Shown: piece by piece, positions 2-17,844 of the stretch
Layout: the number at the start of each line of letters is the position of its first letter
Numbering within the stretch: the stretch's first letter is position 1
Assembly (NCBI GenBank): GCA_016222805.1
Contig: JACRQG010000008.1
Location: 310,001-374,000, forward strand
Length of the DNA: 64,000 nucleotides
Direction of reading: 5' to 3'
Source: Verrucomicrobiota bacterium
GTDB lineage: Bacteria; Verrucomicrobiota; Verrucomicrobiia; Opitutales; Opitutaceae
Position numbers and translations under genes: made by a program
Notes under the pieces: generated by a model
Databases searched by the model: none
Told to the model about the DNA's origin: nothing
Seen by the model: only the letters and a program-made list of their open reading frames with translations

Positions 2-499
2 CTATTTCGCACCGTCAACACCTTCCTTCGCGACCTGGGCGGTGAGTACCTGATCGTCTGCGGCACCCTCCTCGGCTGGCACCGCCACCGCGGCCTCCTG
101 CCGCACGACAAGGACGTGGATTTCGGCCTGCCCGAGGCCGCCTACCCGCTCGTGCGCGCGAGTGGTGACCGGCTGCCCGCCGGCTTCCTCCTGCACGACA
201 CCTCGCACCGGCATGGCGGACCCAAGCTCTACGTGGAGTACCGGGGCTGGGAGGCGGACCTCTACTTCTACGCCGAGAAGGACGACCGGCTCCTGCCGTA
301 CGTGGTGAGCGATGAACCCGGGGACGCGGTGCCCTTTCCCCGCGACTGGTTCTTTCCGCGGCAGCCGGCCACCTTCCTGGGAGAAGCCACCTTCGTGCCG
401 GCGCAGCCGGAGAAGTACCTGGAGCATCAATACGGCTACTTCGGAGCCGACGCGGAAAGGGATCCGGTCACCCGCTACTACCGGCGCCGTTCGCCTTGA
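2..499 (+). CDS. LicD/fukutin-family protein, 5' truncated
   Basis: The gene enters from the left edge; 165 residues and the stop are visible. It belongs to the LicD (fukutin-related) nucleotidyltransferase-fold family, whose members transfer phosphocholine or other phospho-groups onto surface glycans. The visible start holds the family motif GTLLG (visible residues 21-25) followed by the acidic metal-binding stretch HDKDVDFG (35-42). A Tyr/Trp-rich C-terminal half follows, with EADLYFY and the ending RYYRRR. The true start lies outside the window, so neither length nor operon partners upstream can be judged. The next gene converges on it 22 bases away. The family call is good; the transferred group is unknown. 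Confidence 0.8.
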   Translation, partial: LFRTVNTFLRDLGGEYLIVCGTLLGWHRHRGLLPHDKDVDFGLPEAAYPLVRASGDRLPAGFLLHDTSHRHGGPKLYVEYRGWEADLYFYAEKDDRLLPYVVSDEPGDAVPFPRDWFFPRQPATFLGEATFVPAQPEKYLEHQYGYFGADAERDPVTRYYRRRSP

Positions 500-521
500 A
501 ACCGGCCCGCCCGGGCCTTGC

Positions 522-1916
522 TCAGGACTTCTTCGCGGCCGCGGGGGTCGGTCGGGCCGGAGGTGGCATCGTCCGGTTCCAGGCCTGCCAGGCGTCCAGC
601 AACTCGCGGGTGAGCGCGGGCTCCTCGCCGGCGAGATCGCGGGCCTCCCCGATGTCCCGGCCGAGGTGAAATAACTGCGGCCGGAACTCCGGAGCGAGCA
701 GGAGCAGTTTCCAGTCCCCGCGGCGCAGGGCAGCGGCGGACTTGATCTTCCAGAACAAGTCCCCATGGGGCGCCTCCGCCCGATCGCCGCGGACGAAGGG
801 CACGAGGTCCACGCCGTCCACAATCGTCGTCGCCGGAGTCCTGACGCCGGCGGCCGCACACGCCGTCGGCAGCACATCCATCGCGGTAACGGGGTGTCGA
901 TAGTTCACCCCCGCCGGTACCCGACCCGGCCAGCGGACGATGAAGGGTTCGCGGATTCCTCCTTCGTACAGATCGGTTTTGGCTCCGCGCAACGGCCCGG
1001 CCGAACCGACCACCGTGATGCCGCGCGGCCACTCCGGCTTCCAGCCCTCGATGTGCGGGCCGCCCTTGGCCGGGCCGTTGTCCGCCAGGAAAAACACCAG
1101 GGTATTCTCCTCCAGGCGGCGGGAGCGGAGAGCGTCGAGGATGCGTCCCACGTTTTCATCCAGCGCCGCGACCATCGAGGCGTAAAGCCGGTGCACCTCC
1201 AGCGGCAGGTGGGCGAAGCGTTTTTCGTCGCTGCGCCGGCCCTGCCACGGGCTGTGGACCGCGTTGAAACCCACGTAGAGGAAGAACGGCCGGCCCGCGT
1301 GGCGATCGATGAACTCGACCGCGTGGCGACCGAGCTTGTCCGTGAGATACTCGTCCCCTTCCCGCTTCGGCCCCCAATACTGGGTCTTGCTCGAGGCGAA
1401 TCCCGGACTCTTGGTCGCCAGGCTGCCGACATAATGGCCGTCTTCCTGGGGAAAATAGTCCGACTCCCACTCGATGAAGTGATGCACCTCGTCGAAAACC
1501 TGTTCCGCCGGCCGCACGATGTTCCACTTGCCGACCAACCCGGTCACATATCCGGCGCCCCGGAGCAATTCCGGCAAGAGGCGCTGCGAGTCGGGCAAGC
1601 GATGGGCACCGCGATCGTCGTTCCACGTCATCCCGAAGCGTTGGGGATAGGCACCGGCCATCAGGCTGAGGCGACTCGGTGCGCAGGCCGGGCACGTCAC
1701 GTAGCCGTCGGTGAAGCGGACGCCCTGCCTCGCGAGCCCATCGATGCGCGGGGTCGGCACCACCGTGCCTCCATAGGAGGAGACATCGCCGTAACCCATG
1801 TCGTCCGCCAGGAGGATGACGATATTGGGGGCGCCGGCAGGAGCAGCCGCCCAGGTCGCGGCCACGAAGGTGCAGAGGAGAAGGCCGAGGCGGAGAAAGG
1901 GACGATGCCGGTTCAT
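522..1916 (-). CDS. Secreted type I sulfatase
   Basis: A 464-residue formylglycine-dependent sulfatase. A signal peptide of about 24 residues (LLLCTFVAATWAAA) is followed by the metal-binding start NIVILLADDMGYGD (31-44). The CxPSR activation motif is C78-A-P-S-R, so the nucleophile Cys would be converted to formylglycine by an FGE- or anSME-type enzyme; neither is encoded here. Later hallmarks include GKWN and DNGPAKGG. It is the last gene of the minus-strand carbohydrate operon, which suggests it removes sulfate esters from the glycan attacked by the upstream rhamnosidase and esterase. The substrate is not determinable. The gap upstream (1917-2169) holds a perfect palindrome. Confidence 0.93.
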   Translation of the reverse strand: MNRHRPFLRLGLLLCTFVAATWAAAPAGAPNIVILLADDMGYGDVSSYGGTVVPTPRIDGLARQGVRFTDGYVTCPACAPSRLSLMAGAYPQRFGMTWNDDRGAHRLPDSQRLLPELLRGAGYVTGLVGKWNIVRPAEQVFDEVHHFIEWESDYFPQEDGHYVGSLATKSPGFASSKTQYWGPKREGDEYLTDKLGRHAVEFIDRHAGRPFFLYVGFNAVHSPWQGRRSDEKRFAHLPLEVHRLYASMVAALDENVGRILDALRSRRLEENTLVFFLADNGPAKGGPHIEGWKPEWPRGITVVGSAGPLRGAKTDLYEGGIREPFIVRWPGRVPAGVNYRHPVTAMDVLPTACAAAGVRTPATTIVDGVDLVPFVRGDRAEAPHGDLFWKIKSAAALRRGDWKLLLLAPEFRPQLFHLGRDIGEARDLAGEEPALTRELLDAWQAWNRTMPPPARPTPAAAKKS

Positions 1917-2016
1917 GATTCCAGGATTGGTGTCCTTGGCGGAAACTCCCGCAGGCCGGACCTCCTGCAGGAACGACTCCTCCGTCCCGCAGGCCGGTGC
2001 GCTGGGCGTGACTCGT

Positions 2017-2038
2017 GGCGGGGTGAGGTCACCCCGCC
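2017..2038. repeat. Perfect GC-rich palindrome, operon repeat copy 1
   Basis: Two 10-base arms, GGCGGGGTGA and TCACCCCGCC, flank a 2-base centre; the match continues with CCAC to 2042. It is one of several copies of the same palindromic element found between the genes of this operon. This copy sits in the 253-base gap between hydrolase and sulfatase and would form a strong hairpin in the transcript. Nothing else recognisable was found in the gap. Confidence 0.85.
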
Positions 2039-2169
2039 CACAGGAGGAAGTAGGTCTCCGAACCCTCCCGATCCTATCCTACTCCGGGACGGTGCAAACC
2101 TCCCACCCAGATCCCGGGCAGTCGGCGGTTCCAGCCTCGGTCTCATCTTTGAAGCGCACCCCTTCCGGC

Positions 2170-3423
2170 CTACAAGTGCCGATCGAAGAACTCGAGGATG
2201 GCGGGGACCTCGAATTCATGTCCGCCAGCGTGCAGGTGGTAGACGAAGCGATCGCCGATGCCGAGCCGGCGATAGAACTCCGCGGCTCGGTCCGCCTCGA
2301 CCTGCGCCCCGTCGAGGGGGTTGATCGCCCCATCCTGCCGCCCGATCTGCATCAGGCAGGGGCGCGGGCAGATCAGGCCGATCGCCTGGAAGTGGCCCAA
2401 GCCGCCGACCGCCTCGCGATCGGTCACCTTGGAGTCATCCGCCGCCGCCCGGAGGTGCAGTTGCGCCAAATCCCTCAGGTATCCGGACGGAGCGGCCACC
2501 TTGATCCGGGGTTCCAATGCCGCCGCGTACATCGTGAAGAAGCCCCCCCAGGAGAGGCCGGTCATGCCGATGCGCTCGCCGTCGATCTCGGGTCGCTCGC
2601 GCACCAGCGTGCGCATGCTCTCGAGGATCTTGTGGAGTTCGAGCCCGATGATGCTCGTGCCGGCGAGGCGGAGTTTCTGATCGAGGAGCTCGCGCGCCGC
2701 CCCCGGGATGGCCGGATCGCCGCTGAAACTGCTGCGCATGGCCAGCGCCGGCGCCCAGACGGCATAACCCCGCCGCACCGCCTCCCGGCCAAAGGAGCGG
2801 TAGTTGATCCTCGTATCCAGATCGCAAATCGCCTCCGGGTTGCCGCCGCCCCCGTGCTGCGCGATCAGCAGCGGCACCCTTCCTTTGCGCCGCTGCGGCA
2901 GCAGGTAGAGGCCGTACGCCTCGACACCGTCGATGACCTCAATCCAGGCGCGATAGATCTCGCAGTCGGGATCGGTGGCCACGTGCACCCACCGGGTGAT
3001 GCGGCCGGTCCTGGCCCCGGGGGGAGGCGTCCCGTAGAAGGCTCCCACCTTGGCCCGATAGGGAGCGAGCGACTTTTCGTAGGCCGCCACGTTGCTGGTG
3101 TCGGGGGCGAACTGCCGGAGGGCGCGGTCGGCCTGCTCCGCCAGGAGCCGGTCGACATAGCCCGTGATCTGCAGGTGTTGTTCGCGGCGAATCGGAAACG
3201 AGTCGGCAAAGGGCTCCCGATAGGGGCCGGCACTGCCCGCGGCGGGCTCGGCGCCGAATACCACGTGCGCCAGCGTGGCAACGACAAGCCCCACCACGCT
3301 CCCGGACCACCGCCACCGCGACTCTTGTACGCGCGGCGCCCTCGCCCCGCACCCGGCCGGATTCGCAGGCACTAGGCTGCGGGGCCAGGTCGCCCCGCCC
3401 ACAGGGGTGGAGATGGCGTTCAT
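2170..3423 (-). CDS. Secreted alpha/beta-hydrolase, acetyl-xylan-esterase type
   Basis: A 417-residue hydrolase with the nucleophile elbow GLSWGG, an Asp in GRQDGAINPLDG and a C-terminal His in HAGGHEFEVP, so a complete Ser-Asp-His triad. It resembles large carbohydrate esterases and dienelactone hydrolase-like proteins that deacylate plant or algal glycans. The chosen ATG overlaps the stop of the rhamnosidase gene (ATGA), favouring translational coupling. From this start, the first ~30 residues are encoded by a palindromic repeat and come before a hydrophobic export segment (SVVGLVVATLAHVVFGAE). A GTG start just before that segment is possible and would remove the repeat-encoded peptide. Function class is firm; substrate and exact start are not. 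Confidence 0.82.
   Translation of the reverse strand: MNAISTPVGGATWPRSLVPANPAGCGARAPRVQESRWRWSGSVVGLVVATLAHVVFGAEPAAGSAGPYREPFADSFPIRREQHLQITGYVDRLLAEQADRALRQFAPDTSNVAAYEKSLAPYRAKVGAFYGTPPPGARTGRITRWVHVATDPDCEIYRAWIEVIDGVEAYGLYLLPQRRKGRVPLLIAQHGGGGNPEAICDLDTRINYRSFGREAVRRGYAVWAPALAMRSSFSGDPAIPGAARELLDQKLRLAGTSIIGLELHKILESMRTLVRERPEIDGERIGMTGLSWGGFFTMYAAALEPRIKVAAPSGYLRDLAQLHLRAAADDSKVTDREAVGGLGHFQAIGLICPRPCLMQIGRQDGAINPLDGAQVEADRAAEFYRRLGIGDRFVYHLHAGGHEFEVPAILEFFDRHL
3379..3402. repeat. Operon palindromic repeat copy 2, in coding sequence
   Basis: An imperfect copy of the element (GCGGGGCCAGGTCGCCCCGC plus CCAC). It lies inside the annotated start of the hydrolase gene, where it is read on the minus strand as the peptide PVGGATWPR. 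Confidence 0.75.
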
Positions 3424-6400
3424 TCGATCGGGTGGACGGCGATGGGAATCAGACGCACCGGACCGAACAGGCCCGACTCGATGGGATCGAGCTTCGCCCA
3501 CGGGCCGGATTGCATCTCCCGTCCCAAGCCGCGCTGCGAAACGGTGACGTGCGTCTTCGTCCACTTGGGCACGGCCCCGCGCGCCTCGCCGACCAGGCGG
3601 TTGTGCCAGGTGTTCACGACGTCGACCGTGATCTCGTTGGCGCCATCGCGCAGCGCCGCCGTGCAGTCGACGCGGAAGGGCGGAGTCCATACCACGCCCA
3701 GCGGCCGGCCGTTGACCGCCACCTCACCAATCGCCCAGAGCCGGCCGAGGTCGAGTTCCACACGTTTCGCGTGCGCCCGCCAACCCTCGGGCAGGGCGAA
3801 GGTGCGCCGGTAACGGGCCGTTCCCGTGAAGTACTTGAGCTCTGGCGCCGCCGACTGGGTCCATGGACCCACCCGCTGCAACAGGACGCGCCCTGGCGCC
3901 CCGGCAGGTGAACTGAAGTCGACGGTCCAGTCGGAATCGAGCATCAGCAGGCCCGGCAGCGGCGGCACCGCCACCTCACCGCGCAGGCCGGAGCCGAAGG
4001 TGACGGTGTAGGTGCCGCCTCGCTCGGTCACGAGGTGCGGGTGCCCATCCCGGATTTCGACTCCCGCGTGGGGAGCCACCTGCGCCACTGCCGTGGGCGG
4101 GATGCGGCCACGGAAGACCACAAAGATCGAACCGAGCGGGGCCAGCTGGAGCGACACCTCGATGCCACCTTCGACGCGACGGAACATTCCGGCCGGAGCC
4201 ATCACCCCGGTCCGCGGATCCCACAACTCCGGGGCCTTCAGCCCGGCGCGGAAGGTGGCCGTGCCGGTGAAGGCGGTCGTCTCCCGGTTGCGCACGAAGT
4301 AGATTTCGGCGTCGCCGTCACGCCGGTGGATGAAGTCGAGCGCGGCCGGAGCCGTGAAGTCCGGCGGAACGCCCAACTCGGTGAGGACCTCGCGCTCGGT
4401 GCGACCCTGCACGACCCGGCCCGCGCCGTGGCGGCGGCTGGTGCGTTCCTTCCCATCGAGGTCGGCCCAGAGTTTCGTCGCGAGTTCCTTCACGGTCGCG
4501 TCGCTGCGGGCGAAGCCCTCCAGGCCCGAGGCGCGCCGGGGCCGCGGCCCGAGGACTGTCGCGCCGGCCTGCACCAGGGCGTCGATCTTCGCCAGCACGG
4601 CCGGGTGGATGTCCTCCCGCGCCGGCAGCACGAGCACGCCGTAATGAGTGCCGTCGGGCAGGGTCAGGCGCCCATCGCGCACGGAGAGCCGGGTGAGAAT
4701 GACCTCGGCGTTGACGACATCGTAATCGTAACCGGGGCCGAGGGTCGGCGGGTTGCGGCGGGGACCGACGAAGTTGGCCCCGCCGTCGCCGTAGTAATAG
4801 AGAACGTCGGCGACGAAGTTCCCCCGCTGCAAGAGATACGAGCCGCGCGCCAGGTAGCTCAGGAAGGCGGGTGCCTGCGGCCACCAGGTCACGTTGCGGT
4901 TGAGGTGCGTGCCGGCCCCGTAGACCCAGCCGGGCACGCCGGCCGCCGGACTGTTGTGCGTCCACGTGTGCCAGACGAAGTGGTTGCCGCCCTCACAGAA
5001 CACGCGGTCGGCGCTCTCCTTCAGATCCTGCGGCCCCTCGGCCCAGTGCCGCGATGAAGTGAACGACTCCAGGTGGATGCGGCGTACGCCGTAGATGTGC
5101 CCGGCCGACGCCGGTTCCTTGATCACGTTGATCGCGTCGCTGGTCGGTCGGAACGGCCAGAACTCCCCCTGCACGCTGTCGATCGCGCCAAAGGCCTGCA
5201 GCGCCTCGATCGGCGGCGTGTGGATCGGCGGGCCGGGCCCGCCGGCCTCGGACTTGATCTTCAAACCCGCCGCGCGGGCCACCTCCGCGGCGGTGCGGTA
5301 ATAGGCGTCGACCACGACCTCGCCCATCGTCTTTTCGTAGTCGAAGAGGAAGCGCTCCGTCGTCTCGGAGTTGCCGATCTGCGCCCCGAAGAGGGCCGGC
5401 AGATAGCGCGTGAGCTCGTAGCCGCGGCGGCGCTTGAACTCCGCCGCAAACACCGGCGACCAGACCTTGCCCACGACCTCGTAGCTGGCGAGGTACAGAT
5501 TGGTCAGCCCCGCCTTCGGCAGATCGTCGCCCAGCCCTTTCTTCAGTTGCGCGATCACGTGGTTCATGTGCACGCGGGTCGCCTCGGGGTTGAGATGATC
5601 GCTCGCCAGCCCGTCGGACGCGGGGCTCGGCACCTTGAGTTTCTCTCCCGTCACCATGCACACGTAGCGGAGGATCGTCCACGTCCCCGGCGGTGCCTCC
5701 CACCGCAGGCGTCCCTCGCGATCCACCTGGGCGGTCACGTCGACCAGGTCGCGCGGATCGGTGATGTCGAACGGCGGCCGGCCAAACGTGCAGAACACGC
5801 CCCCGGGTCCGTCGACGGACCCGTTGTTGAGGTTGGCGGCCTTCCAATTGTAGTAGGTGAGCGGCATCGGGGCGCGCACAGTGAGCGCACCGTCGTAGAG
5901 TCGGTTCACCGCGTGGTTGCCGGCCAGGTTGCGCCCGGTGGCATCGAGAACCTCAAACTCGCCGAGGGTCCACCGCGGGCGGGCCGCCTCGTGGCCGCTG
6001 AGCAGGCGCAACTGCACGTAGCGACCCTTGGTGCCCTCCGGCAGCTTGAAGCGCTGCGGTCCCGGCGTCGGCGCGAGCGTTCCCCGCAGCACCTCCGTGA
6101 AATCCCGGGCGCTCGCGCCGGTGCTGGACACGGCCACGGCAAACTCCTTCACCGGCGTCATCGTGGCGGCCAGTTCCGCGCCGGCGTTGGGCCGTCCCTG
6201 ATCCAGGACCACTTCGGCCAATCCGTGCTCCGCCGGAGGATCGAGCCGGAGGACGAATTCGTGCGCCGGCAGCCGTTTCGGAGCGCGCAGGGCCAGGACC
6301 GTCACATCGGTCCAGAAGGCGGGGCGGCCGTCGGGCCCGAGCGGCGCGGTCCGCTCCGGAGTGGGGAAGGGCAAGGCGACCTCGACCCGCTGGCCGCCGG

Positions 6401-6947
6401 TCACCTCGGCCTCCGTCGCATAGAGCGCCATGACCGCATGCTTCGGCTCAATCCAGGGACCGCCCATGTCCCAACTGCTGATCACCGACATATCGACCTG
6501 GAGTCCAAGGGCGCGCGCTTCGTCCAGCGCGGTCTTGAGCTGGGCGAGCCACCCGTCGCTGAGGAAGGCCGGCCCGGGCGGCGGGAAGGCCGCCTTGTCG
6601 CCGCGCGCGCCCATCTCGAACAACAACACGCCGCTCAGCCCAGCCTGCTTCATCGCGCGCAGTTCCTCGATGGCCGACGGGGCGTGCAGGTGCCCGTTCA
6701 TCCACAGCCAGTAGGTGTGCGGCCGCGCCTCCATCGGTGGCTCGCGGAAGCCGGCCGCCAGTTCGTCGACGACCGCGGCGGAGGCGGCGCTGAACAACGA
6801 TGCCGACACGGCCAGCGCCGTCCCATGAAACACCTTCCGCCAAGATAGGCGGGGCGACCTCGCCTCGCGAAGGGCCGCTAATTGAGTCTCCCCGGCGCGG
6901 GGCGAGGTCGCCCCGCCCACATCTCGGTCCAATCGGGTCGGCTGCAT
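3420..6947 (-). CDS. GH106-type alpha-L-rhamnosidase
   Basis: A 1,175-residue exported glycoside hydrolase. After the export segment (about residues 40-58, ALAVSASLFSAASAA) comes PHTYWLWMNG, a GH106 N-terminal signature, then the catalytic barrel region and C-terminal beta-sandwich domains (TGTARYRRTF, DLGRLWAIGEVAVNGRPLG) like the GH2-type sugar-binding fold seen in this family. The length fits GH106. The ATG at 6947 has a clear AGGAG Shine-Dalgarno sequence 8 bases upstream, inside the end of the isomerase gene and 2 bases after its stop. From it, 38 residues encoded by two inverted palindromic repeats precede a possible GTG start at 6833. It likely frees L-rhamnose from a sulfated, acylated polysaccharide. 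Confidence 0.85.
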   Translation of the reverse strand: MQPTRLDRDVGGATSPRAGETQLAALREARSPRLSWRKVFHGTALAVSASLFSAASAAVVDELAAGFREPPMEARPHTYWLWMNGHLHAPSAIEELRAMKQAGLSGVLLFEMGARGDKAAFPPPGPAFLSDGWLAQLKTALDEARALGLQVDMSVISSWDMGGPWIEPKHAVMALYATEAEVTGGQRVEVALPFPTPERTAPLGPDGRPAFWTDVTVLALRAPKRLPAHEFVLRLDPPAEHGLAEVVLDQGRPNAGAELAATMTPVKEFAVAVSSTGASARDFTEVLRGTLAPTPGPQRFKLPEGTKGRYVQLRLLSGHEAARPRWTLGEFEVLDATGRNLAGNHAVNRLYDGALTVRAPMPLTYYNWKAANLNNGSVDGPGGVFCTFGRPPFDITDPRDLVDVTAQVDREGRLRWEAPPGTWTILRYVCMVTGEKLKVPSPASDGLASDHLNPEATRVHMNHVIAQLKKGLGDDLPKAGLTNLYLASYEVVGKVWSPVFAAEFKRRRGYELTRYLPALFGAQIGNSETTERFLFDYEKTMGEVVVDAYYRTAAEVARAAGLKIKSEAGGPGPPIHTPPIEALQAFGAIDSVQGEFWPFRPTSDAINVIKEPASAGHIYGVRRIHLESFTSSRHWAEGPQDLKESADRVFCEGGNHFVWHTWTHNSPAAGVPGWVYGAGTHLNRNVTWWPQAPAFLSYLARGSYLLQRGNFVADVLYYYGDGGANFVGPRRNPPTLGPGYDYDVVNAEVILTRLSVRDGRLTLPDGTHYGVLVLPAREDIHPAVLAKIDALVQAGATVLGPRPRRASGLEGFARSDATVKELATKLWADLDGKERTSRRHGAGRVVQGRTEREVLTELGVPPDFTAPAALDFIHRRDGDAEIYFVRNRETTAFTGTATFRAGLKAPELWDPRTGVMAPAGMFRRVEGGIEVSLQLAPLGSIFVVFRGRIPPTAVAQVAPHAGVEIRDGHPHLVTERGGTYTVTFGSGLRGEVAVPPLPGLLMLDSDWTVDFSSPAGAPGRVLLQRVGPWTQSAAPELKYFTGTARYRRTFALPEGWRAHAKRVELDLGRLWAIGEVAVNGRPLGVVWTPPFRVDCTAALRDGANEITVDVVNTWHNRLVGEARGAVPKWTKTHVTVSQRGLGREMQSGPWAKLDPIESGLFGPVRLIPIAVHPIE
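6848..6917. repeat. Inverted pair of operon palindromic repeats
   Basis: One copy (GGCGGGGCGACCTCGCC, 6848-6864) and its exact reverse complement (6901-6917) face each other across 36 bases. Each half is itself near-palindromic. The pair lies wholly inside the translated 5' end of the rhamnosidase gene, downstream of its strong ribosome binding site, and encodes VGGATSPR and EARSPRL. The layout resembles a paired REP/BIME unit. Confidence 0.85.
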
Positions 6948-6949
6948 GC

Positions 6950-8437
6950 TTATTTCTCCTGGTTCACGATCACGGTTTCAATCCCGAGCGCCTCGCCGAC
7001 GCGACGGATGGCCTGGGCCCGATGGCCGATGCCCAGGGCGAAATGATGCGTCGGGCCCTCCGCCACCCACCGCTTGAGGAAGGTCCGCACGTCGGGCCGG
7101 AAGAAGCCGCGGGTGTTGGTGTTGCCGGTGGCCGGGATCGGGCCGTGCACACTCTCGCCCTCGGCGAGGATGAACTTGAAGCGCCCCTGCGCGGTCACGC
7201 CGATGCTCAGCATGGTGATGGGACCTTCCTTGATCTTGAACTCGACGCTCGCCCCCTTGCCCGGCTTGCCGTGGTACTTGATCAGGCTACGCAGCACCGG
7301 CTTGCCGTCGGCGATGTTGAGATGGTGCGGACCGTCGTGACCGACCAAGACGAACCCCTCCTTGAAGTCCACCGGGTGAAACTCCGCGAAGCTGCCGCCA
7401 ATCCCGAGACGATCCATGATCAGCATCGCCACGCAGGTCTTGAGATCCGATTCCCCGCACATCGGGAAACCCGCGGCCGTCAGGAGCGAGTTGCCGACGA
7501 TGAGGTTGGTGACGATCGTGCGCAGCGCCGACTCCGGCTCGCCTTCGTAGTAATAGGCGAGGCCGTCGATCTCGTGCAGCGCGATGAACTTGTCCAGGGC
7601 CACGGCCACGCGGGCCGCGGTCTGGAGATCTTCGTCGGTGAGCTTGCGCGTGAGCGGGTCGGCTTTCGGGTCGGGTGTGTCGAAGAGGGTGAGGATCTCG
7701 TCGCACTTGGCCCGGATCTCCGCGGCGGTGACCGTGCGCTCGAGGCGCAGGAGATCGTCGGCCTCGGTCTGCACGACATGGCACCCGAAGGCGGAGGTCA
7801 GCGCGGTCTGATCGGTCTGCATGTCGAGCATGTGCTCGATCGGATGCCCGAAGTGCCCGAGGCGGGCGCGTTTCACGTCGTGCAGTGCCATCGCAATCTC
7901 GCACCACTCGACAATTTCCGCCTCGGCCGCCGCGTCGCCCTCGAGCGTGCCGAGGATCACCTCCGGCGGACGCTTGCCCATCCGGATGGCCACGCCGGTG
8001 AACTCCGGCACGGAGCAGAAGTCGTCATTGGCGAGCTGCATCCGGGTCGTGGCCCGGGCATAGTCCATCGCCGCCATCGGCTGCAGGGCCACGAGCACGA
8101 TTGGGACGTCGAGCGAACGGATGATCACCCCGAAGGTCGCCGAGGTGGCGTAGGTGACCATGTCGCAGAAGATCAGGTCGAGGTCGGCCGCCTTGAGCCG
8201 CGGGACCAGGGCGTAGGCCGCCTGCGCGGTGTCCACCAGGCCGAAGTCGGTCACCGTCACGCCGGTGGCGCTGACCTTGGCCTGCAGCCGCTCCATCTTG
8301 GCAAGCATCTCGTCGCGCAGCCCAGGGAACTGTCCCCAGTAGGTGTGATGGCCGACGCCGAAGAGGCCGACACGGGCCGTGCGCGGCTTGCGGCGCGGAA
8401 TGCGCGGAACGGGAGAAGAGGAGGACGAAGCGGTCAT
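6950..8437 (-). CDS. L-fucose/L-arabinose isomerase family protein
   Basis: A 495-residue cytoplasmic protein of the fucose/arabinose isomerase fold, which interconverts aldoses and ketoses using Mn2+. Visible family features are the N-terminal VGLFGVGHHTYWGQFPG, the metal-ligand region around FPMCGESDLKT, the segment GHDGPHHL, and the C-terminal THHFALGIGH close to the end, where arabinose isomerase has its last His ligand. The length matches AraA (about 500). Placed between a GH106 gene and an MFS transporter, it probably isomerises the liberated sugar, but whether that is arabinose, fucose, rhamnose or another deoxy-sugar cannot be told. A Ser-rich N-terminus (TASSSSSPVPRIPRRKPR) is an unexplained tail. 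Confidence 0.8.
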   Translation of the reverse strand: MTASSSSSPVPRIPRRKPRTARVGLFGVGHHTYWGQFPGLRDEMLAKMERLQAKVSATGVTVTDFGLVDTAQAAYALVPRLKAADLDLIFCDMVTYATSATFGVIIRSLDVPIVLVALQPMAAMDYARATTRMQLANDDFCSVPEFTGVAIRMGKRPPEVILGTLEGDAAAEAEIVEWCEIAMALHDVKRARLGHFGHPIEHMLDMQTDQTALTSAFGCHVVQTEADDLLRLERTVTAAEIRAKCDEILTLFDTPDPKADPLTRKLTDEDLQTAARVAVALDKFIALHEIDGLAYYYEGEPESALRTIVTNLIVGNSLLTAAGFPMCGESDLKTCVAMLIMDRLGIGGSFAEFHPVDFKEGFVLVGHDGPHHLNIADGKPVLRSLIKYHGKPGKGASVEFKIKEGPITMLSIGVTAQGRFKFILAEGESVHGPIPATGNTNTRGFFRPDVRTFLKRWVAEGPTHHFALGIGHRAQAIRRVGEALGIETVIVNQEK

Positions 8438-8469
8438 GGAAAAACGTTCCGAATCATCGGGTCGGGGTT

Positions 8470-8559
8470 ACCACGAATGAACACGAATCAACACGAACCC
8501 TGCGGGCAGGAAGGCAGCGAGCGGGCTTCATTGGTGTGTCTTGGTGTTTATTCGTGGTT
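8470..8559. repeat. ACCACGAAT inverted repeat
   Basis: The left arm at 8470-8497 reads ACCACGAATGAACAC followed by further GAATCAACACGAA units. The right arm at 8528-8559 ends GTGTTTATTCGTGGT, the inverse with one mismatch over 15 bases. The right arm runs into the 3' end of the MFS gene and supplies its last codons (Asn-His-Glu) and stop. This sequence differs from the GC-rich operon repeat but occupies the one junction that lacks it. Confidence 0.8.
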
Positions 8560-9768
8560 GTTTCCGCCACCACCCCGGAACACCACCCGGCCGCTGAGGA
8601 TCAGCCAGGCGAGCGGGTAAACGACGGCCGAGGCGAGGAAGATCGGCGTAAACGAGTAGTGATCCACCACGGGCCCGATGATGAGATTGGAGAGCATCCC
8701 GGCGATACCGCCGCACGTGCCGGTCAGGCCCACCGTGGTGGCCACGTCCCGCGATTCCACCGTGTCGCCGATCAGCGCCATGAAGTTGGTGATCCAGATG
8801 CCGTGCGCGAACATCAAGACCGCCATCAGCCCAATCGCGACCGCCGGAGTACCGGCCAGCGCCGCGAGAAAGGAGGCCGGCGTCAGGAGCGCCGCGAACA
8901 GCATGAGGTTCATCCGCGCCTTCCGCCGCGGCACCCCCCGCGCGATGATGCGGTCGGAGACGTGGCCGGCCCCGATGTTCGCCACCTCGAGAAACACGAA
9001 CGGAATCCAGGTCAGTGCGCCGATGGCGGCGAGGGACATGCCCCGCTCCTTCGAGAGGTACTGCGGGATCCAGAACATGTAGAAGTAAAAGACCGGATCG
9101 AAGCAGAACCGGGCGGCCAGCAGGCGCCGCACCTCCACCCGCCCGAGCAGGGACCGCCAGCTCGAGGAGCGCGGACTCTCCGCCGTCGGCGACAGTGTGG
9201 CGCGCGGCAGACCGCGAAATGCCAGGATCCACGCCAGCAACCACGCCGCCCCCAGGGCCGCCGTGGCGGCAAACGCACCCCGCCAACCGAGGTGCTCGGC
9301 CGCCCACGCCGTCAGCGGCGGCGCCAGCACGGACCCCACCGCGGCCCCGCTGCTCGCAAGACCAATGGCCAGGCCGCGACGCTTTGCGTCCATCCACTCG
9401 ACCGCCCCCTTGATCGCTCCGGGAATCGCCGGACCTTCTCCGACCCCGAGGAAGAACCGCGCGGCGCCCAGCGTAAGCGGCCCCGTGACAAACGCATGGG
9501 CCGCGCTCGCCAGCGACCAGAACCCCACCGCCAGCGTCAGTCCGCGCCGGGTGCCGAGCGCATCCATCACCCGGCCTCCCAGCGCCAGCATCAGCGTGTA
9601 ACTCAGGACGAAGGCGAACACCACGCGGGAATAGGCGGTGTTCGACATCCCGAACTCCTTCGTGATCGTCGGCGCCAGCACGCTTAGCACCTGCCGATCG
9701 AGAAAGCACAGCGCCGCCGCCAGGAAGAGCAGGAAGCAAAGAAGCCAGGCGCGGGCCGGGGAGATCAT
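8548..9768 (-). CDS. MFS transporter, ACS/hexuronate-like
   Basis: A 406-residue inner-membrane major facilitator with about 12 hydrophobic segments. The N-terminal motif FLDRQVLSVLAPTITKEFG is typical of the anion:cation symporter branch (hexuronate, glucarate and related sugar-acid carriers); the loop GGRVMDALGTRRGLTLAVG is the MFS signature A position, and RFFLGVGEGPAIPGAIK is the branch signature on helix 4. It probably imports the mono- or oligosaccharide released by the operon's enzymes. The final residues Asn-Asn-His-Glu and the stop fall in the ACCACGAAT repeat, so the natural C-terminus may have been replaced by repeat sequence. Confidence 0.9.
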   Translation of the reverse strand: MISPARAWLLCFLLFLAAALCFLDRQVLSVLAPTITKEFGMSNTAYSRVVFAFVLSYTLMLALGGRVMDALGTRRGLTLAVGFWSLASAAHAFVTGPLTLGAARFFLGVGEGPAIPGAIKGAVEWMDAKRRGLAIGLASSGAAVGSVLAPPLTAWAAEHLGWRGAFAATAALGAAWLLAWILAFRGLPRATLSPTAESPRSSSWRSLLGRVEVRRLLAARFCFDPVFYFYMFWIPQYLSKERGMSLAAIGALTWIPFVFLEVANIGAGHVSDRIIARGVPRRKARMNLMLFAALLTPASFLAALAGTPAVAIGLMAVLMFAHGIWITNFMALIGDTVESRDVATTVGLTGTCGGIAGMLSNLIIGPVVDHYSFTPIFLASAVVYPLAWLILSGRVVFRGGGGNNHE

Positions 9769-9780
9769 GAACGGTTGCTC

Positions 9781-9859
9781 CTGGAGGCGGGGCGACCTCG
9801 CCCTGCGGGATGGGAGGCTCCGCCACGGGCGGCGCGGGGCGAGGTCGTCCCGCCTCCAG
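9781..9859. repeat. Inverted pair of operon palindromic repeats, MFS/TonB gap
   Basis: 9781-9808 (CTGGAGGCGGGGCGACCTCG and following CCCTGCGG) and 9831-9859 form a long inverted pair: the arms match over about 27 bases with two mismatches, around a ~22-base centre that is itself partly palindromic (GGAGGCTCC). It fills most of the 126-base gap between the TonB receptor stop and the transporter start. Confidence 0.85.
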
Positions 9860-9894
9860 GATCGACGCTGACGGAACCAGACATGGTGCCGAAC

Positions 9895-12800
9895 TCAGAA
9901 ACCAAGCGACACGGAGAGGCGGAAATTGCGGGGTTCCCGCGGGACGACGCGCCAATAACCATCGCCGACGCGGTTGAGCCGGATGACCTGGATCCGATCG
10001 CTGTCGAAGAGATTGGAGACATTGAGCTGCGCGCGCAGCGTCGTGCCGCGGCCGAGCAACCCCGCCTTGAGACGCGTGGAGTAGCCGATCAGCGCATCGA
10101 CATTGAAGATTTCGGGTCCGTAGAGGATCTTGCCGAGGACGTCCTTGCCGAGGGCGTCGAAGCCCACGATGTCGCGCTGGAGCACGTTGTTGTCCTGCCA
10201 CCGCACGCCGCCGCCGACAAACAGGCCCCGGAGACGTCCACTCTCGGGGAAGGAGTAGCGGATGAAGGTATTGGCCTTGTGGGGGCGGTTGTTGTACCCG
10301 ATTTCGTTCAACGCGAAGAGATTTTGCACCCCGGTCTCGATCTGCGCGATTTCGGTGCTGATCGGCAGGTTGGCGGTCGTCAGCAACGTCGAGGGGAAGC
10401 GCCCGTAGTAGGCCTTTTGCTCGGCAAACCACGGGTACCAGTCCTGGCCAAGGTTGCTGCGCTTCAGCTTCGTGTAGGAATAGGAGGCGGTGATCGTCCA
10501 GTTCTTCGTCGGATTGGCCTTCACCTCGACCTCGTACCCGCTGGTGGTCAGGTCGGACATGAAGTCCCCGAGGTAGGCGGTGAGGAAGCGGCTGTCGGCC
10601 TCCGCCTGGCTGATGAGCCCGTTGTCCCGATACGCGGTAACGATGCGCCGGTGCGCGAGGATGAAGGTGTTGTCGCGGACGGTCGGGTCGTTGCGCGACT
10701 CGGTGTGAAAGGCGCTGGCCCGGGTGAAAAGCCGGCCGTCGAGGAAGTTCAGGATCAGGCCGTAATCGCGGCCGGTGCCCTCCGGCGGGATCGGGAGCGA
10801 GGCGTCCGGCAACATCCGCCGGTTGGTCTGAGGCGCGCCGTTGTTGTTCGATTCGTTGTAGAAGACGCTGACGCCCTTGGTCACCCCGAGGACGGCACCG
10901 GCGGTGTAGGTGTAGAAGGTGTAGGAGCGGATGTTGGCGGGGTCCTCGCCGAGGAGTTCGTATTCGTAGGCGATCTTCTCGCCGGAGGCCACGCGCGGGT
11001 CGTTCGGGGCGATGCGCCCGTTGCTGAACGGCGTGAGATCGACCGCGTCGCGCCGGAGCCCGCCGGTGACAATGAGGCGGCCGCGCCAGAAGCGGCTCTG
11101 CGTGGCCAGCATGGTGCTGTCGATTTCGCGGATGGCGCCGTTGGCGTTCGAATTGGTGATGAACCGGCCGACGTAGTTGACGCCTCCATACGTAATCGGC
11201 CGGGTGTCAAACCGGCTGCCGGCGTAGTGGGTGTCGGGGGCGTAGGGATCGACGTAGCGCCGGCGGAAAAGGGTGTTCTGACCGTTTTCCGGCGCGGTGG
11301 TGTTCATGATCGGCACGCGGGTCGTGCTGTTGACCAGGATCTCCGCCCCCTGGGTGGTACGGTTGGTCGACTCGCTGCGCTCCGCCATGCCGGCCAGCCG
11401 GTGGTCGCCCCAGCGGCCGAGATCGAACCGCCACGACGCCGTGCCGCGGTAGACCTTGTTCCACATCGCCTCGATGTTGTGATACCAGGCCTGCTCGACG
11501 TAGGTCTGGCCGGCCCGGGGGTTGGGCACGCGCGTGGCGGTGCCGTCGGGGTTGGGCTGGTAGAGGTTGGGATCGCCGTACAGCGCGAGGTCCCCGGACA
11601 TCTGGTAGGAGAAACCGTAGCCGTACTCGCGGTTGTAGGCGAACTCGACGAAGCCGTCGCGGCCGAGCTGCTGCTCGATCTTGAAGAAGCGGCGATTGAT
11701 GTCGTTGGTCCGGACAGCCTCGGGTCCGTAGTAGTTGATGTCGTACGGCGAGGACGGCAGCCCGTTGGCCTGGGGCGTGGTCGGGAGCAGGGTCTGATAG
11801 GTGGCGCCTTCCTGCCGCTGCGTGGGAATGCCGCTCGCCATGCCCGATTCATAACGTCCCGCGGAGCGGTAGAGCACGGTGTTGGCGCTGCCGGCGCGGA
11901 TGAACATGGGCCGGCCGTCGTTCGACACCCAGGAGTTGCGGATGCCGATGCCGCGCGTGCCACTCGGGTTGTTGACCGTACCGGTGCCGGTGCCGAGCGC
12001 CGTGTTGTCGATGGTCTGGCGGCCGCGCTCCCACCAGAAGGAGAGCAGGTCGACGCGGTTGTAGGGTCGCTCCGAGGGATTCGCGATGTCGCCCTTTTCG
12101 TAGAACGCGGTCACTGTCGTGCCCTTGAACGGCTTGAAACCCGCGACCGCCGACCAGCGCTCCGTTTCGCGGCTGGCATACTTGCGCCAGGTGTCGCGCT
12201 CGTCGTGCACGCCCATCACGCGCAGGGCCAGCTTGTCCTTGAGCGCGACCACATTGACGTCCGCCTCGGCGCGGTAGGCGGCCCACGAGCCGGCGATGAG
12301 GTTGAAGTTGAGCGAAGTGCGCCGGAAGTCCGCGGTGCGCGTCTGGGCGTTCACGATACCGCCGGCGGAGCCGAAGCCGAAGAGCACGGAGTTTGGCCCG
12401 GAGGAGACGTCGAAGCGGCCGGTGTTGTACGTGTCCATCGGCAGCGTCGTGTCGAGGAAGTCGATGGTGCGGGAGGCGGAGAGGCCGCGGTTGTTCACGC
12501 GCACGCTGTTGAGGAGGCCGCCGTCCATGTAGAAAAAGCTCGGCGCGGTGGAGACGGCGTTGAAGTCGGCGTTGGCGTTGACGGCGTACTCCAGCACGTC
12601 CGCGAGATCCGTCGCGCCCAGATCCTTGAGGAACTCGGCGGTGAAGACCGACACCGAGGCAGGCGTCTCCGAGAGCTTCGTGTTCATGCGGCTGCCGGCG
12701 AGGGTATTGCCCGCCTGATAGCCGCGATCGGTGTCGGATGTGACCGTGAACGGGCTGAGGATGACCGTGTCGGACTTCGCCGGCTCGGCGACCGTCGGGA

Positions 12801-12918
12801 CGCTTTGCGCAGCCAGGGGGAGGAAGGGAGCGGCAACCAACAGCAGGGCGCCGGCACCACGGAAATGGCGGGCGACCGCAGCGAGGACGGGCGAGAGGAC
12901 ACGCGTCGGGGTGGTCAT
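9895..12918 (-). CDS. TonB-dependent outer-membrane receptor
   Basis: A 1,007-residue outer-membrane porin-like receptor. A signal peptide (about 1-38, ending PLAAQS) is followed by the TonB-box-like DTVILSPFTVTSD (about 50-62) and the plug start GYQAGNTLAGSRMNTKLSETPASVSVFTAEFLKDLGA in the style of Opitutaceae receptors. The barrel ends in the expected aromatic residue (RLSVSLGF). No SusD-like lipoprotein is adjacent. It is first in the operon and divergent from an IclR regulator, so it is the likely entry point for oligosaccharides or a metal-glycan complex, energised by TonB-ExbBD encoded elsewhere. Substrate assignment rests only on the operon. Confidence 0.92.
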   Translation of the reverse strand: MTTPTRVLSPVLAAVARHFRGAGALLLVAAPFLPLAAQSVPTVAEPAKSDTVILSPFTVTSDTDRGYQAGNTLAGSRMNTKLSETPASVSVFTAEFLKDLGATDLADVLEYAVNANADFNAVSTAPSFFYMDGGLLNSVRVNNRGLSASRTIDFLDTTLPMDTYNTGRFDVSSGPNSVLFGFGSAGGIVNAQTRTADFRRTSLNFNLIAGSWAAYRAEADVNVVALKDKLALRVMGVHDERDTWRKYASRETERWSAVAGFKPFKGTTVTAFYEKGDIANPSERPYNRVDLLSFWWERGRQTIDNTALGTGTGTVNNPSGTRGIGIRNSWVSNDGRPMFIRAGSANTVLYRSAGRYESGMASGIPTQRQEGATYQTLLPTTPQANGLPSSPYDINYYGPEAVRTNDINRRFFKIEQQLGRDGFVEFAYNREYGYGFSYQMSGDLALYGDPNLYQPNPDGTATRVPNPRAGQTYVEQAWYHNIEAMWNKVYRGTASWRFDLGRWGDHRLAGMAERSESTNRTTQGAEILVNSTTRVPIMNTTAPENGQNTLFRRRYVDPYAPDTHYAGSRFDTRPITYGGVNYVGRFITNSNANGAIREIDSTMLATQSRFWRGRLIVTGGLRRDAVDLTPFSNGRIAPNDPRVASGEKIAYEYELLGEDPANIRSYTFYTYTAGAVLGVTKGVSVFYNESNNNGAPQTNRRMLPDASLPIPPEGTGRDYGLILNFLDGRLFTRASAFHTESRNDPTVRDNTFILAHRRIVTAYRDNGLISQAEADSRFLTAYLGDFMSDLTTSGYEVEVKANPTKNWTITASYSYTKLKRSNLGQDWYPWFAEQKAYYGRFPSTLLTTANLPISTEIAQIETGVQNLFALNEIGYNNRPHKANTFIRYSFPESGRLRGLFVGGGVRWQDNNVLQRDIVGFDALGKDVLGKILYGPEIFNVDALIGYSTRLKAGLLGRGTTLRAQLNVSNLFDSDRIQVIRLNRVGDGYWRVVPREPRNFRLSVSLGF

Positions 12919-13013
12919 GGGCGTTCGGGGAAGGGAGGGGAACTTCGGCCCCGTGTGCTTCGGGGCTGCGTGAATGAGTCCGCGGAGGTCGCCCGGCTCA
13001 ACCCGATAATTAA

Positions 13014-13044
13014 GCTAATCCGAATAACGTTCTGCTAATCCGAA
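13014..13044. promoter_or_regulatory. Paired GCTAATCCGAA direct repeats, candidate operator
   Basis: The 11-mer GCTAATCCGAA occurs at 13014-13024 and again at 13034-13044, exactly 20 bases apart (about two helical turns), in an AT-rich patch of the 175-base divergent gap between the TonB receptor and the IclR gene. The position suits a regulator binding two copies on one DNA face. That IclR is the binder is inference; no clear -35/-10 pair could be assigned. Confidence 0.45.
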
Positions 13045-13093
13045 CATTTCTCTTGATAAACTCCCTCCTCTGGTGGTTCGGTGCGAGGAGACC

Positions 13094-13912
13094 ATGATCC
13101 AGCCGGCTCCCGTGCCCTCCCGTTCCTCCCGCGCCACCGTCCAGTCGGTCGAAAAGGCGCTGCGCCTGCTGCAGGTGCTCGATCGCCACGGGAGCTGGAT
13201 CGGGGTGCGCGAGCTCGCGCGACAACTTCAGCTCTCCCCGCCGGCCACGCACACGCTGCTGAAGACGCTGCAGGCCGCGAGCTTCGTCGAAGCCAACCCC
13301 GCTTCGCGGCAGTACCGCCTGGGCCTGGCGGCGGTGCGCCTCGGGGCCGGCGCCGACCCCCAGCAGCAGATGCGCCGTTTCGCCCGCCCGTACATCGAGA
13401 CCCTCGCGGAACGCTCCGACGAGACCATCGTGGTGCTCGCGTGGCAGCACGAACAGGCGGTGGTGGTCGACTGGATCCAGGCCGGGCACACGCTCGCCGT
13501 CACCCACCACCACGGGGTCGTGGAGCACCCGATTGTCTTCGCCTCGGGCCGGGTGCTCCTGGCCTACCAGGACCGCGACACCCAGGTGCGACACCTCCGG
13601 ACCGAGGACTACGCAAAACTCGCCCCCAACGCCCCGCGCGACGCCACGGAAGCGCTGGCACTGCTGGACCAGGTCGCGCGCGACGGCATCGCCGTGACGG
13701 ACAACGTGGGCAACAGCGGCGTCGTCGCCGTCGGCGCGCCGGTCCTCGACGCCATCGGCCGCCTCGTCTTCGCCGTCGGCTGCAGCGCCCCGCTCACGCG
13801 GATCGACCCGGCCCGCCTCGCGCACCTGCGGGAACGCGTGCTCGAGATCGCGGCGGAGATGACGCAGAAGCTGCGTGCGCCTGGCCCGGTCGCCACCGGC
13901 CGCACGCCCTGA
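13094..13912 (+). CDS. IclR-family transcriptional regulator
   Basis: A 272-residue regulator with an N-terminal winged helix-turn-helix (about residues 14-75: TVQSVEKALRLLQVLDRHGSW, then ELARQLQLSPPATHTLLKTLQAASFV) and the IclR effector-binding domain (HHGVVEHPIVFASGRVLLA, NVGNSGVVAVGAPVLD). The ATG at 13094 is preceded by GAGGAG; a GTG at 13073 would add seven residues without a visible ribosome binding site. It diverges from the carbohydrate operon and likely controls it and itself, in response to a sugar or sugar-acid intermediate. Confidence 0.9.
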   Translation: MIQPAPVPSRSSRATVQSVEKALRLLQVLDRHGSWIGVRELARQLQLSPPATHTLLKTLQAASFVEANPASRQYRLGLAAVRLGAGADPQQQMRRFARPYIETLAERSDETIVVLAWQHEQAVVVDWIQAGHTLAVTHHHGVVEHPIVFASGRVLLAYQDRDTQVRHLRTEDYAKLAPNAPRDATEALALLDQVARDGIAVTDNVGNSGVVAVGAPVLDAIGRLVFAVGCSAPLTRIDPARLAHLRERVLEIAAEMTQKLRAPGPVATGRTP

Positions 13913-13931
13913 CTCCGGAGCGGGCGCCGCG

Positions 13932-15179
13932 CTACACCGTCCGGATTGCGCGGGCCTTCGCGTCGTAAGTCGTGCGCCGCCCGGTGCGCCAGGATTCCAC
14001 CGCCATCAGGCAGGTGACGGAGTGCAGGTAGCCGGCCTCGATCGGGGCGCGCGTCGGCTTGCCAGAGCGCAGGCACCGCAGCCAGTCGAGGAAGTGATCG
14101 GGGGTCTCGATCGGCTTCACCTCGTTCACCCCGCGGATCGCGCCGTCGCGCTTCAGCCCGCCCTCGGCCGTGTAGGTCGGGGCGCTCCAGTTGTCGAGGA
14201 TGAGCTGTCCCTTCTCGCAGAAGTAGCGATGTCGGTTGCCACCCGAATTCCCGAAGTTCGTCGAATACGCGACCATCAGGTCCTCGGCGTAGACCCAGAG
14301 GGCCTCGACGTGGTCCGGGCTGGTGAAGTTTCTCTCGTCCTTCCAGGTGAACACGCCCCCCTGGCACATGCAGCTCTGCGGAAAACCCAGGCCCGTGATG
14401 TAGCTGTAGAGGTCGGTGAAATGGCAGCCGAGGTTGGCCACCGGGCCATCGGTGTAGTCGAGGTAGCCGTACCAGCCGGAATAGACGAGCGGATCGACCG
14501 GCCGCCGGGGGGCATCCATAAGGAATTCGTTCCAGTCGAGATCCGCGGCCCACAAGTCGGTCTTGTCGCGCCCGTACCAATACGGCTTCGCGCCGTTCCG
14601 GCACTGCTCGATGCGCGAGGGCTTGCCGAGCTTGCCGGAGAGCCAGAGTTCGCGGCAGGCCGTGCTCGTGGGCAGGCTGCGGATCTGCGTGCCGACCTGC
14701 ACGACGATGCCCGCCGCCTTCACGGCATCCACACAGCGGATCAGCTCCGCCATGTTGCGGGCGAGCGGCTTCTCGACGTAGGCGTGCTTGCCGGCCCGGG
14801 CCGCGGCCTCGAGATGCGTCGAATGGTGGTGGTCGAGCGACGCGATCAGCACGGCGTCGACGTCCTTCATCTCCAGGATTTCCCGGTAGCTCACGCACTG
14901 CCGGACCTTGGCGCCGTACCACTCCTGGCATTGCGCCGCGGCCTTCTCGCGCGCGAGCCGCCACGGATCGCTCACCGCGACGTACTCGACGTTCTCCGCC
15001 CGGTCGTGCGGGTGTACGCCCTTCATGTGGGCGCCGATGCCGCGGCTGCCGCAGCCAATCTGGGCCAGCCGGATTCGGGAGTTGGCCCCGACCACGCGCG
15101 CATAGCTGCGGGCGGACAGGGCGGTGGCGGCCGCGGTGGCCGTCTTGAGGAAGTTCCTGCGACTGGTGGCGGTTTTCAT
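13932..15179 (-). CDS. Tat-exported Gfo/Idh/MocA oxidoreductase
   Basis: A 415-residue NAD(P)-dependent oxidoreductase. The start at 15179 gives a twin-arginine leader (TSRRNFLKTATAAATALS); a longer upstream reading would bury it. The Rossmann start IRLAQIGCGSRGIGAHM and the family motif YVEKPLARN (catalytic Lys in EKP) are clear, followed by the alpha/beta C-terminal domain with DWNEFLMDAP. Exported members are thought to act on sugars in the periplasm, some with tightly held cofactor. It converges with the IclR gene (19-base gap). No paired sugar-isomerase gene is next to it. Confidence 0.88.
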   Translation of the reverse strand: MKTATSRRNFLKTATAAATALSARSYARVVGANSRIRLAQIGCGSRGIGAHMKGVHPHDRAENVEYVAVSDPWRLAREKAAAQCQEWYGAKVRQCVSYREILEMKDVDAVLIASLDHHHSTHLEAAARAGKHAYVEKPLARNMAELIRCVDAVKAAGIVVQVGTQIRSLPTSTACRELWLSGKLGKPSRIEQCRNGAKPYWYGRDKTDLWAADLDWNEFLMDAPRRPVDPLVYSGWYGYLDYTDGPVANLGCHFTDLYSYITGLGFPQSCMCQGGVFTWKDERNFTSPDHVEALWVYAEDLMVAYSTNFGNSGGNRHRYFCEKGQLILDNWSAPTYTAEGGLKRDGAIRGVNEVKPIETPDHFLDWLRCLRSGKPTRAPIEAGYLHSVTCLMAVESWRTGRRTTYDAKARAIRTV

Positions 15180-15349
15180 CGGGGAAAGGCCGGGAGCGGC
15201 GGCAAAGCGGGCGCGCGAAAGCGGACGCTCGTTCCTAGCTTCGCGAACGCCAGGCCGCGACACTATTCTCACGCCGCGCCGCGCGACGGCCGCCGTCTTG
15301 ACAGCCCGGGTGCTTCCTCCGCACGTTTCCGCCCCCTGACCCACTGCCC

Positions 15350-16192: not shown

Positions 16193-16210
16193 CGGGCCAT
16201 TCTCGGGGTC

Positions 16211-17725: not shown

Positions 17726-17830
17726 TGGGCGGGGCGACCCCTGCGCGGCGATCCTCTTGTCGCCGGGGGCGGCGACCCCGGGCCGGCAACGTCGATCGAC
17801 TTTTCTAGGCCGGCCTCAACGAGGCCGGCT
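17726..17830. repeat. Repeat and hairpin cluster between convergent genes
   Basis: GTGGGCGGGGCGACC (17726-17740) matches the operon repeat outside its operon, in plus orientation but incomplete. Downstream, 17809-17817 (GCCGGCCTC) and 17821-17829 (GAGGCCGGC) form a perfect 9-base hairpin with loop AAC. The region separates convergent genes, so the hairpin may end transcription from both sides, although no T-run follows it either way. Confidence 0.55.
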
Positions 17831-17844
17831 ACATCCGATAACGG

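Follow-up and report, generated by a model that had tools for sequence, protein, structure and literature searches.

The 64,000-nt stretch of DNA analysed here (the window) lies on contig C51 of a 7.9-Mb genome (G000), which is assembled in 51 contigs and 95.6% complete, and carries an operon of six minus-strand genes with a palindromic repeat at every internal junction. The first gene encodes a TonB-dependent receptor (PF07715; 9895–12918) and is followed by genes for an MFS transporter (PF07690; 8548–9768), an L-arabinose/L-fucose-isomerase-like protein (6950–8437), a GH106 alpha-L-rhamnosidase-like protein (3420–6947), an acetyl-xylan-esterase/dienelactone-hydrolase-like protein (2170–3423), and a sulfatase (PF00884; 522–1916). 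This TonB–sulfatase cluster is a polysaccharide-utilisation operon, and the nearest named relatives of its isomerase gene are Opitutaceae, i.e., Verrucomicrobiota. The GH106 start codon (ATG 6947) is preceded by a GGAG motif and lies 2 nt past the isomerase stop, while the esterase start codon (ATG 3423) overlaps the GH106 stop.

As a preliminary description of this DNA had proposed, all five junctions are occupied: a GC-rich element, here termed family A, is present at the four places named there, and the fifth junction holds an inverted repeat of a second family, B, marked by ACCACGAAT. As argued below, family A consists of repetitive extragenic palindromes (REPs), which often pair up as bacterial interspersed mosaic elements (BIMEs). 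The 126-nt TonB/MFS gap contains an inverted family A pair with GGAG feet (9782–9858, minus strand; RNA fold z -7.5), the MFS/isomerase gap contains the family B inverted repeat (8470–8558, no strand assigned; z -3.7), and the 253-nt esterase/sulfatase gap contains a single family A REP (2018–2044, minus strand; position weight matrix score 31.7; RNA hairpin z -2.1), for which no partner scoring at least 7 was found. Because the isomerase and GH106 genes are separated by only 2 nt, and the GH106 and esterase genes overlap by 4 nt (ATGA), the remaining two family A BIMEs (6844–6921, z -6.6, and 3326–3403, z -2.2, both on the minus strand) are located within the downstream open reading frames (ORFs) and not in gaps. 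Both lie in frame, downstream of the GH106 and esterase starts, respectively, and ahead of a hydrophobic, signal-peptide-like stretch; the foot of the BIME in the GH106 ORF is 29 nt past the end of the isomerase stop codon and 27 nt past the A of the ATG. A single exact match to the 18-base core exists (6901–6918, minus strand); the closest copies at the remaining three places are 1–2 bases off. The predicted RNA folds of 6836–6930 (z -6.6) and 9772–9868 (z -7.5) are very stable, and those of the other elements less so.

In the surrounding DNA (C51:300,000–374,000), family A scores of at least 14 are confined to the operon junctions, which inside the window holds even at a score of 12, and the gap upstream of the operon's first gene contains no family A element. 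The description had noticed a single partial copy elsewhere. This is correct for the window (17727–17744, score 10.6), but not for the genome, which contains many copies. In the convergent gap 17727–17833, the partial copy is followed by a pair of another family, D (17759 and 17810), such that two REP families share one gap. Reading the elements as intrinsic terminators (a GC hairpin followed by a U run) was rejected: positions 400–13300 contain six terminator-like sites, compared to 7.2 in shuffled sequences, none of them at a family A hairpin and one (8498–8511) inside the family B loop. A scan of the window with Rfam gave no match above the gathering score, and ARAGORN detected neither tRNA nor tmRNA genes.

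REP families in the genome

The assignment of the GC-rich element to the REP/BIME class, as previously suggested, is supported by its foot, palindrome, paired layout, copy number, and placement. Family A (consensus TTCCTGTAGGCGGGGCGACCTCGCCCCGCGCCAA) consists of a GTRG foot (GTAG or GTGG) and a hairpin. Copies often occur in twos, mostly head-to-head and with a variable loop (~77 nt from foot to foot), the layout known from BIMEs and from replicative REP doublets (REPINs); single copies occur as well. Exact half-sites of foot and half-stem number 224 genome-wide (118 with GTGG, 106 with GTAG), and a core-like pattern gave 142 strand-matches; since reversed controls yielded none in either search, family A is not a product of chance. 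Among the matches listed, 75 family A clusters are found in 39 co-directional, 22 convergent, and 6 divergent gaps, in 5 genes, and at 3 stretch ends, compared to 93 co-directional, 23 convergent, and 42 divergent gaps of at least 60 nt in a background sample. This is the usual placement of REPs, mostly extragenic and with few copies in divergent gaps. The loci are also clustered (39 of 131 neighbour gaps are shorter than 5 kb against 10.7% expected, among the matches listed and with C51 left out), and tandem BIME arrays with periods of ~169 and 184 nt were seen at two loci (L103, 3970–4385; L106, 13746–14191).

The exact family A pattern was absent from all 199 other genomes sampled from the family (252 genomes; the 200 searched included G000 itself), ten of which belong to the same genus. 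The relatives G207, G208, G209, G211, G215, and G219 were outside this sample; the loci examined in them (146 kb in the case of G207) contain no exact copy. Within these 146 kb, G207 has five diverged A-like matches (scores 16.5–19.6, overlaps counted; in L310, L314, and L315, three of them in L315), which represent a cousin family whose foot is of the GGAG type (TTGGAGGCGGGGTGCCC...). Because of these matches, and because these relatives were not part of the exact search, we do not call family A species-specific or young.

Family A is not the only repeat family of this genome. Family B has 77 matches at up to two mismatches (control: none) and is frequently seen as an inverted element of ~125 nt (ACCACGAAGGGACACGAAT...; L033–L052, and 8470–8558 in the window), while family D (GTAGCCGGGGTCG...) has 132 matches at the same stringency. 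A search for a REP-associated tyrosine transposase (RAYT), as had been recommended, was successful in part: of two Y1_Tnp genes in the genome, one exceeds the NCBIfam cut-off for RAYTs (85.6 vs. 80 bits), but this gene (L054, 3240–4170) is flanked by GTAG-footed BIMEs of family C (GTAGGGCGCGGACTCCGC...; seven genome matches at up to one mismatch), forming a low-copy REPtron, and not by family A, whose nearest copy is 3.3 kb away. A 338-aa RAYT-like gene (L053) was dismissed as a candidate, as it falls below the cut-off (54.6 vs. 80 bits) and family A is absent from its vicinity.

Junction occupancy in this operon is well above the genome average, in line with the view that it is unusual: family A is present at 4 of 5 junctions here, compared to 4 of 297 in a 400-kb sample, where all four are convergent and none of 210 co-directional junctions is occupied. 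That sample, with one exact half-site against 11.3 expected, may understate REP-rich regions. Moreover, the operon is not unique in this respect. The densest family A cluster outside C51, among the matches listed, comprises seven loci in 6.6 kb on contig C49 and coincides with a second operon (L157, G000:C49:450001–470000, 7913–16566), which encodes a TonB receptor, two sulfatases, a DUF1080-like protein, an unknown protein, a third sulfatase, and a GH106-like protein (named by eye from translations, the sulfatases also by domain match). All six junctions seen in it carry family A, the first gap also carries family B, and the second sulfatase gene starts with an ATGA overlap followed by an in-frame REP. 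The genome as a whole has 152 sulfatase-domain matches, some of which are two pieces of one gene. Since copies are spread this unevenly, statistics that assume uniform density within the genome are unreliable, and more weight is placed here on sister species.

The same junctions in relatives

The gene order of the operon is conserved across several relatives, but its junctions are not equally filled. In the same-genus genomes G054 (L149/L196) and G211 (L204), as well as at locus L151, junctions are short and lack inserts, with the exception of TonB/MFS in L196 and L204, which holds a B-like inverted repeat; this junction is outside what was seen of L151. In contrast, the operon of G207 (L193), another member of the genus, whose MFS, isomerase, and GH106 proteins are 82–90% and whose esterase is 70% identical to those of the window, has a family D insert in each of the four junctions shared, two of these inserts being in frame with an upstream ATG. 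G207 has 21 family D sites at up to two mismatches in 8.4 Mb, such that 4 of 21 fall on the junctions of this one operon (plain Poisson P = 3e-9). As the D pattern was written after two of the four inserts, those of GH106 and the esterase, were known, the more appropriate figure is the chance for the other two junctions, ~1e-4 (20 sites, 6.55 kb, by hand arithmetic), and about ten times weaker when the seven relatives searched are considered. The other 17 D stretches of G207 contain 19 D clusters, at most two per stretch and in convergent gaps, without a comparable run. As a reverse control, the operon of G219 (L197/L281) is compact at the three readable junctions, although this genome has 13 D sites. 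Four junctions occupied by families A and B in the window are thus occupied by family D in a sister species.

Further variation was found in G215, where one of two operon copies (L206) has, at each of its five junctions, inverted arms of 9 nt or more, at most candidate repeats. The two isomerase/GH106 pairs of this genome (L195 and L206) differ in their junction inserts. By eye, ACC(A/G)C-type repeats resembling family B are present at junctions of this operon in L195, L202, and L206. Upstream of the D-loaded operon of G207, 3 kb from the TonB gene, lies a RAYT-like gene (L193, 473–1459, minus strand) with no D copy nearby, which appears from its N-terminus, again by eye, to be of the same kind as L053.

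The isomerase/GH106 junction could be compared in the window and 13 other loci. Six of these junctions are short (68–92 nt from the stop to a conserved GFR motif) and eight contain inserts of 124–354 nt, which include family A and family D elements as well as B-like repeats and other hairpins. Five of the eight have inverted arms of at least 9 nt, the hairpins of L286 were judged by eye only, and the insert hairpin of L277 and of L285 (8-bp stem) recurs in the respective genome (3 and 8 matches at up to one mismatch, itself included). Loci without a GH106 pair (L282, L287, L290, and L292–L299) or with an intervening gene (L279, L283, and L155), as well as same-locus duplicates and L289, where the alignment crosses a broken frame, are not among the 14. 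In seven of the eight inserted junctions, the reading frame set by the coupled start continues without a stop across the insert and as far as the signal peptide (binomial P = 0.0026 at a chance of 1/3 each, 0.007 with one likely shared insert merged; stop codons lower the true chance, and shared ancestry raises it). Most inserts, although of several kinds, retain the frame at this one junction.

Since a composition-based gene caller placed both starts past the BIMEs, at 3297 and 6797, we infer rather than observe that translation runs through the two elements. The caller's choice is what one would expect if the BIMEs at 3326–3403 and 6844–6921 were untranslated leaders, i.e., ordinary intergenic REPs, with translation beginning downstream. 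In-frame GTG codons are available within or past the BIMEs, and a similar argument has been made for N-terminal REPs of several species in the portion of PMC3733652 available. However, relatives without inserts share both the ATG with its GGAG just past the isomerase stop and the ATGA by which GH106 and the esterase overlap; the ATGA is present in L149, L150, L151, and L204. Untranslated leaders would further leave unexplained why, at the GH106 start, all but one of the eight inserts keep the frame, and the downstream GTG codons are, by eye, not preceded by a well-spaced ribosome-binding site. We therefore regard untranslated leaders as an unlikely, albeit serious, possibility.

Origin of the junction repeats

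With moderate confidence, we favour a model in which REPs have repeatedly invaded permissive internal junctions, with selection on reading frame and promoters acting as a filter. The GTRG-footed family has expanded in the genome as mostly head-to-head pairs, presumably spread by a RAYT-type transposase, and the internal junctions of a conserved polysaccharide-utilisation operon might serve as permissive landing sites. Insertions upstream of promoters or within genes that they break would be purged, while insertions at the ends of cistrons could survive, as could in-frame ones that separate a coupled start codon from a signal peptide. Different REP families would in this way have come to fill the same junctions independently in sister species, here in the window and in G207. 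The mRNA hairpin of each element may dampen or segment expression, which need not be the reason for its presence; effects of the predicted hairpins on mRNA decay or translation are plausible.

Several observations are at odds with this explanation. In the 95.6% complete genome, no RAYT with family A at its flanks was detected, and the good RAYT carries family C. Permissiveness alone predicts scattered, partial occupancy, a less regular pattern than the complete filling of one operon in two species and of another in this genome. Near sulfatase domains (within 600 nt), REP loci show a 3.4-fold enrichment (20 of 149 loci vs. 5.9 expected, a value reached in none of 2000 rotations), which is weaker at 1, 2, and 4 kb. 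This test covered 149 of 163 listed loci (contigs of known length, C51 left out) and most of the 152 sulfatase matches, and its null consists of rotated positions, not gene junctions. Among 50 co-directional REPs genome-wide, a coupled start is in frame in 16, compared to 13 and 6 in the other frames, and the frame is open through the element in 30, compared to 22 and 26; because this excess is weak, in-frame landing does not appear to be general. Finally, the loading may be recent or old, given that G207, which was outside the 199-genome sample, contains five diverged A-like matches.

Some of these points would be accommodated by a selected function, in which junction hairpins segment the polycistronic mRNA (by 3'-end protection, attenuation, or slowed translation start) and set enzyme ratios, any available REP family being kept. 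The presence of A/B in the window and of D in L193 at the same four junctions would be expected from such a function, as would the inverted arms at all five junctions of L206 (if indeed repeats), the fully loaded second TonB/sulfatase operon, the REP enrichment beside sulfatases, the stable RNA folds at 6836–6930 and 9772–9868, and the fact that the gap ahead of the first gene lacks family A. On the other hand, the mostly insert-free junctions of relatives with the same gene order (L149/L196, L151, and L204) show that hairpins are dispensable. In addition, two of the elements appear to be translated; ribosomes would unfold them, and they are a poor fit to a simple untranslated 3'-end stabiliser. 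A selected function is thus doubtful. A more elaborate version is somewhat more doubtful still: internal junctions of sulfated-polysaccharide operons might be selected for hairpins in this genus, such that unrelated REPs are recruited in parallel and two have been domesticated as translated leaders between coupled start and signal peptide, where they would pace the synthesis of secreted enzymes.

A recent local expansion, as the preliminary description had also considered, in which one BIME entered the operon and was then copied to adjoining junctions, is in keeping with the clustering of family A loci and with the tandem arrays in L103 and L106, but is very improbable, given that the four units differ at 3–5 of 27 bases (22–24 alike), three loops look unrelated, arrays elsewhere sit inside one gap instead of one element per junction, and the sister operon is filled by another family (D).

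Comparison with known systems

Whether operon-internal REPs are tolerated passengers or selected regulators is an unsettled question. The operon described here provides a natural replicate that bears on it: most of the operon's junctions lack elements in some species, whereas in one they hold A and B and in a sister D. It also serves as a warning for gene calling, as N-terminal extensions encoded by REPs could shift or mask the signal peptides of secreted enzymes. "O. terrae", a species named below, we take to be Opitutus terrae, presumably a member of the same family as this genome.

REPs have been known since 1982, according to the reference list of a survey across phyla (PMC12306157), and the recognition of REPs by RAYTs is already published (PMC8266576). 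The GTAG REPs of O. terrae, REP placement, and REPs inside ORFs have been described as well (PMC3733652). In the available text of the latter study, O. terrae (Verrucomicrobia) ranks first among the surveyed species in intragenic GTAG repeats, and a Thauera exopolysaccharide gene cluster is flanked by GTAG arrays; neither an operon loaded at every junction nor parallel loading in sister species is mentioned there. Likewise, the open-licence PMC literature, as far as its text was accessible, yielded no report of an operon loaded at all junctions in parallel by different REP families with the frame kept.

Family A shares with these GTAG REPs the GTAG foot, the palindromic stem, head-to-head dimers, co-directional and convergent placement, and copies in ORFs and N-termini, but, unlike the GTAG-tagged families as presented in the accessible part of PMC3733652, its exact pattern occurs in none of the 199 other family genomes sampled. 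With the REP/BIME elements of E. coli and other bacteria and their transposase TnpA-REP, as far as outlined in the available text of PMC8266576, it has GTAG-preceded palindromes and inverse pairs in common; it differs in sequence and in that some elements lie in apparently coding sequence. The REPINs of Pseudomonas fluorescens (PMC3116915, in part) resemble family A in that inverted REP doublets and their spacer form the replicative unit, in their tandem clusters, and in RAYT association, although family A was not found at the flanks of any RAYT here. Finally, the palindromic elements of Rickettsia, as described in the same portion of PMC3733652, are also palindromic repeats carried in frame in proteins; those matched to REP families are CGTC-tagged and belong to another host, whereas the inserts described here precede signal peptides at coupled starts.

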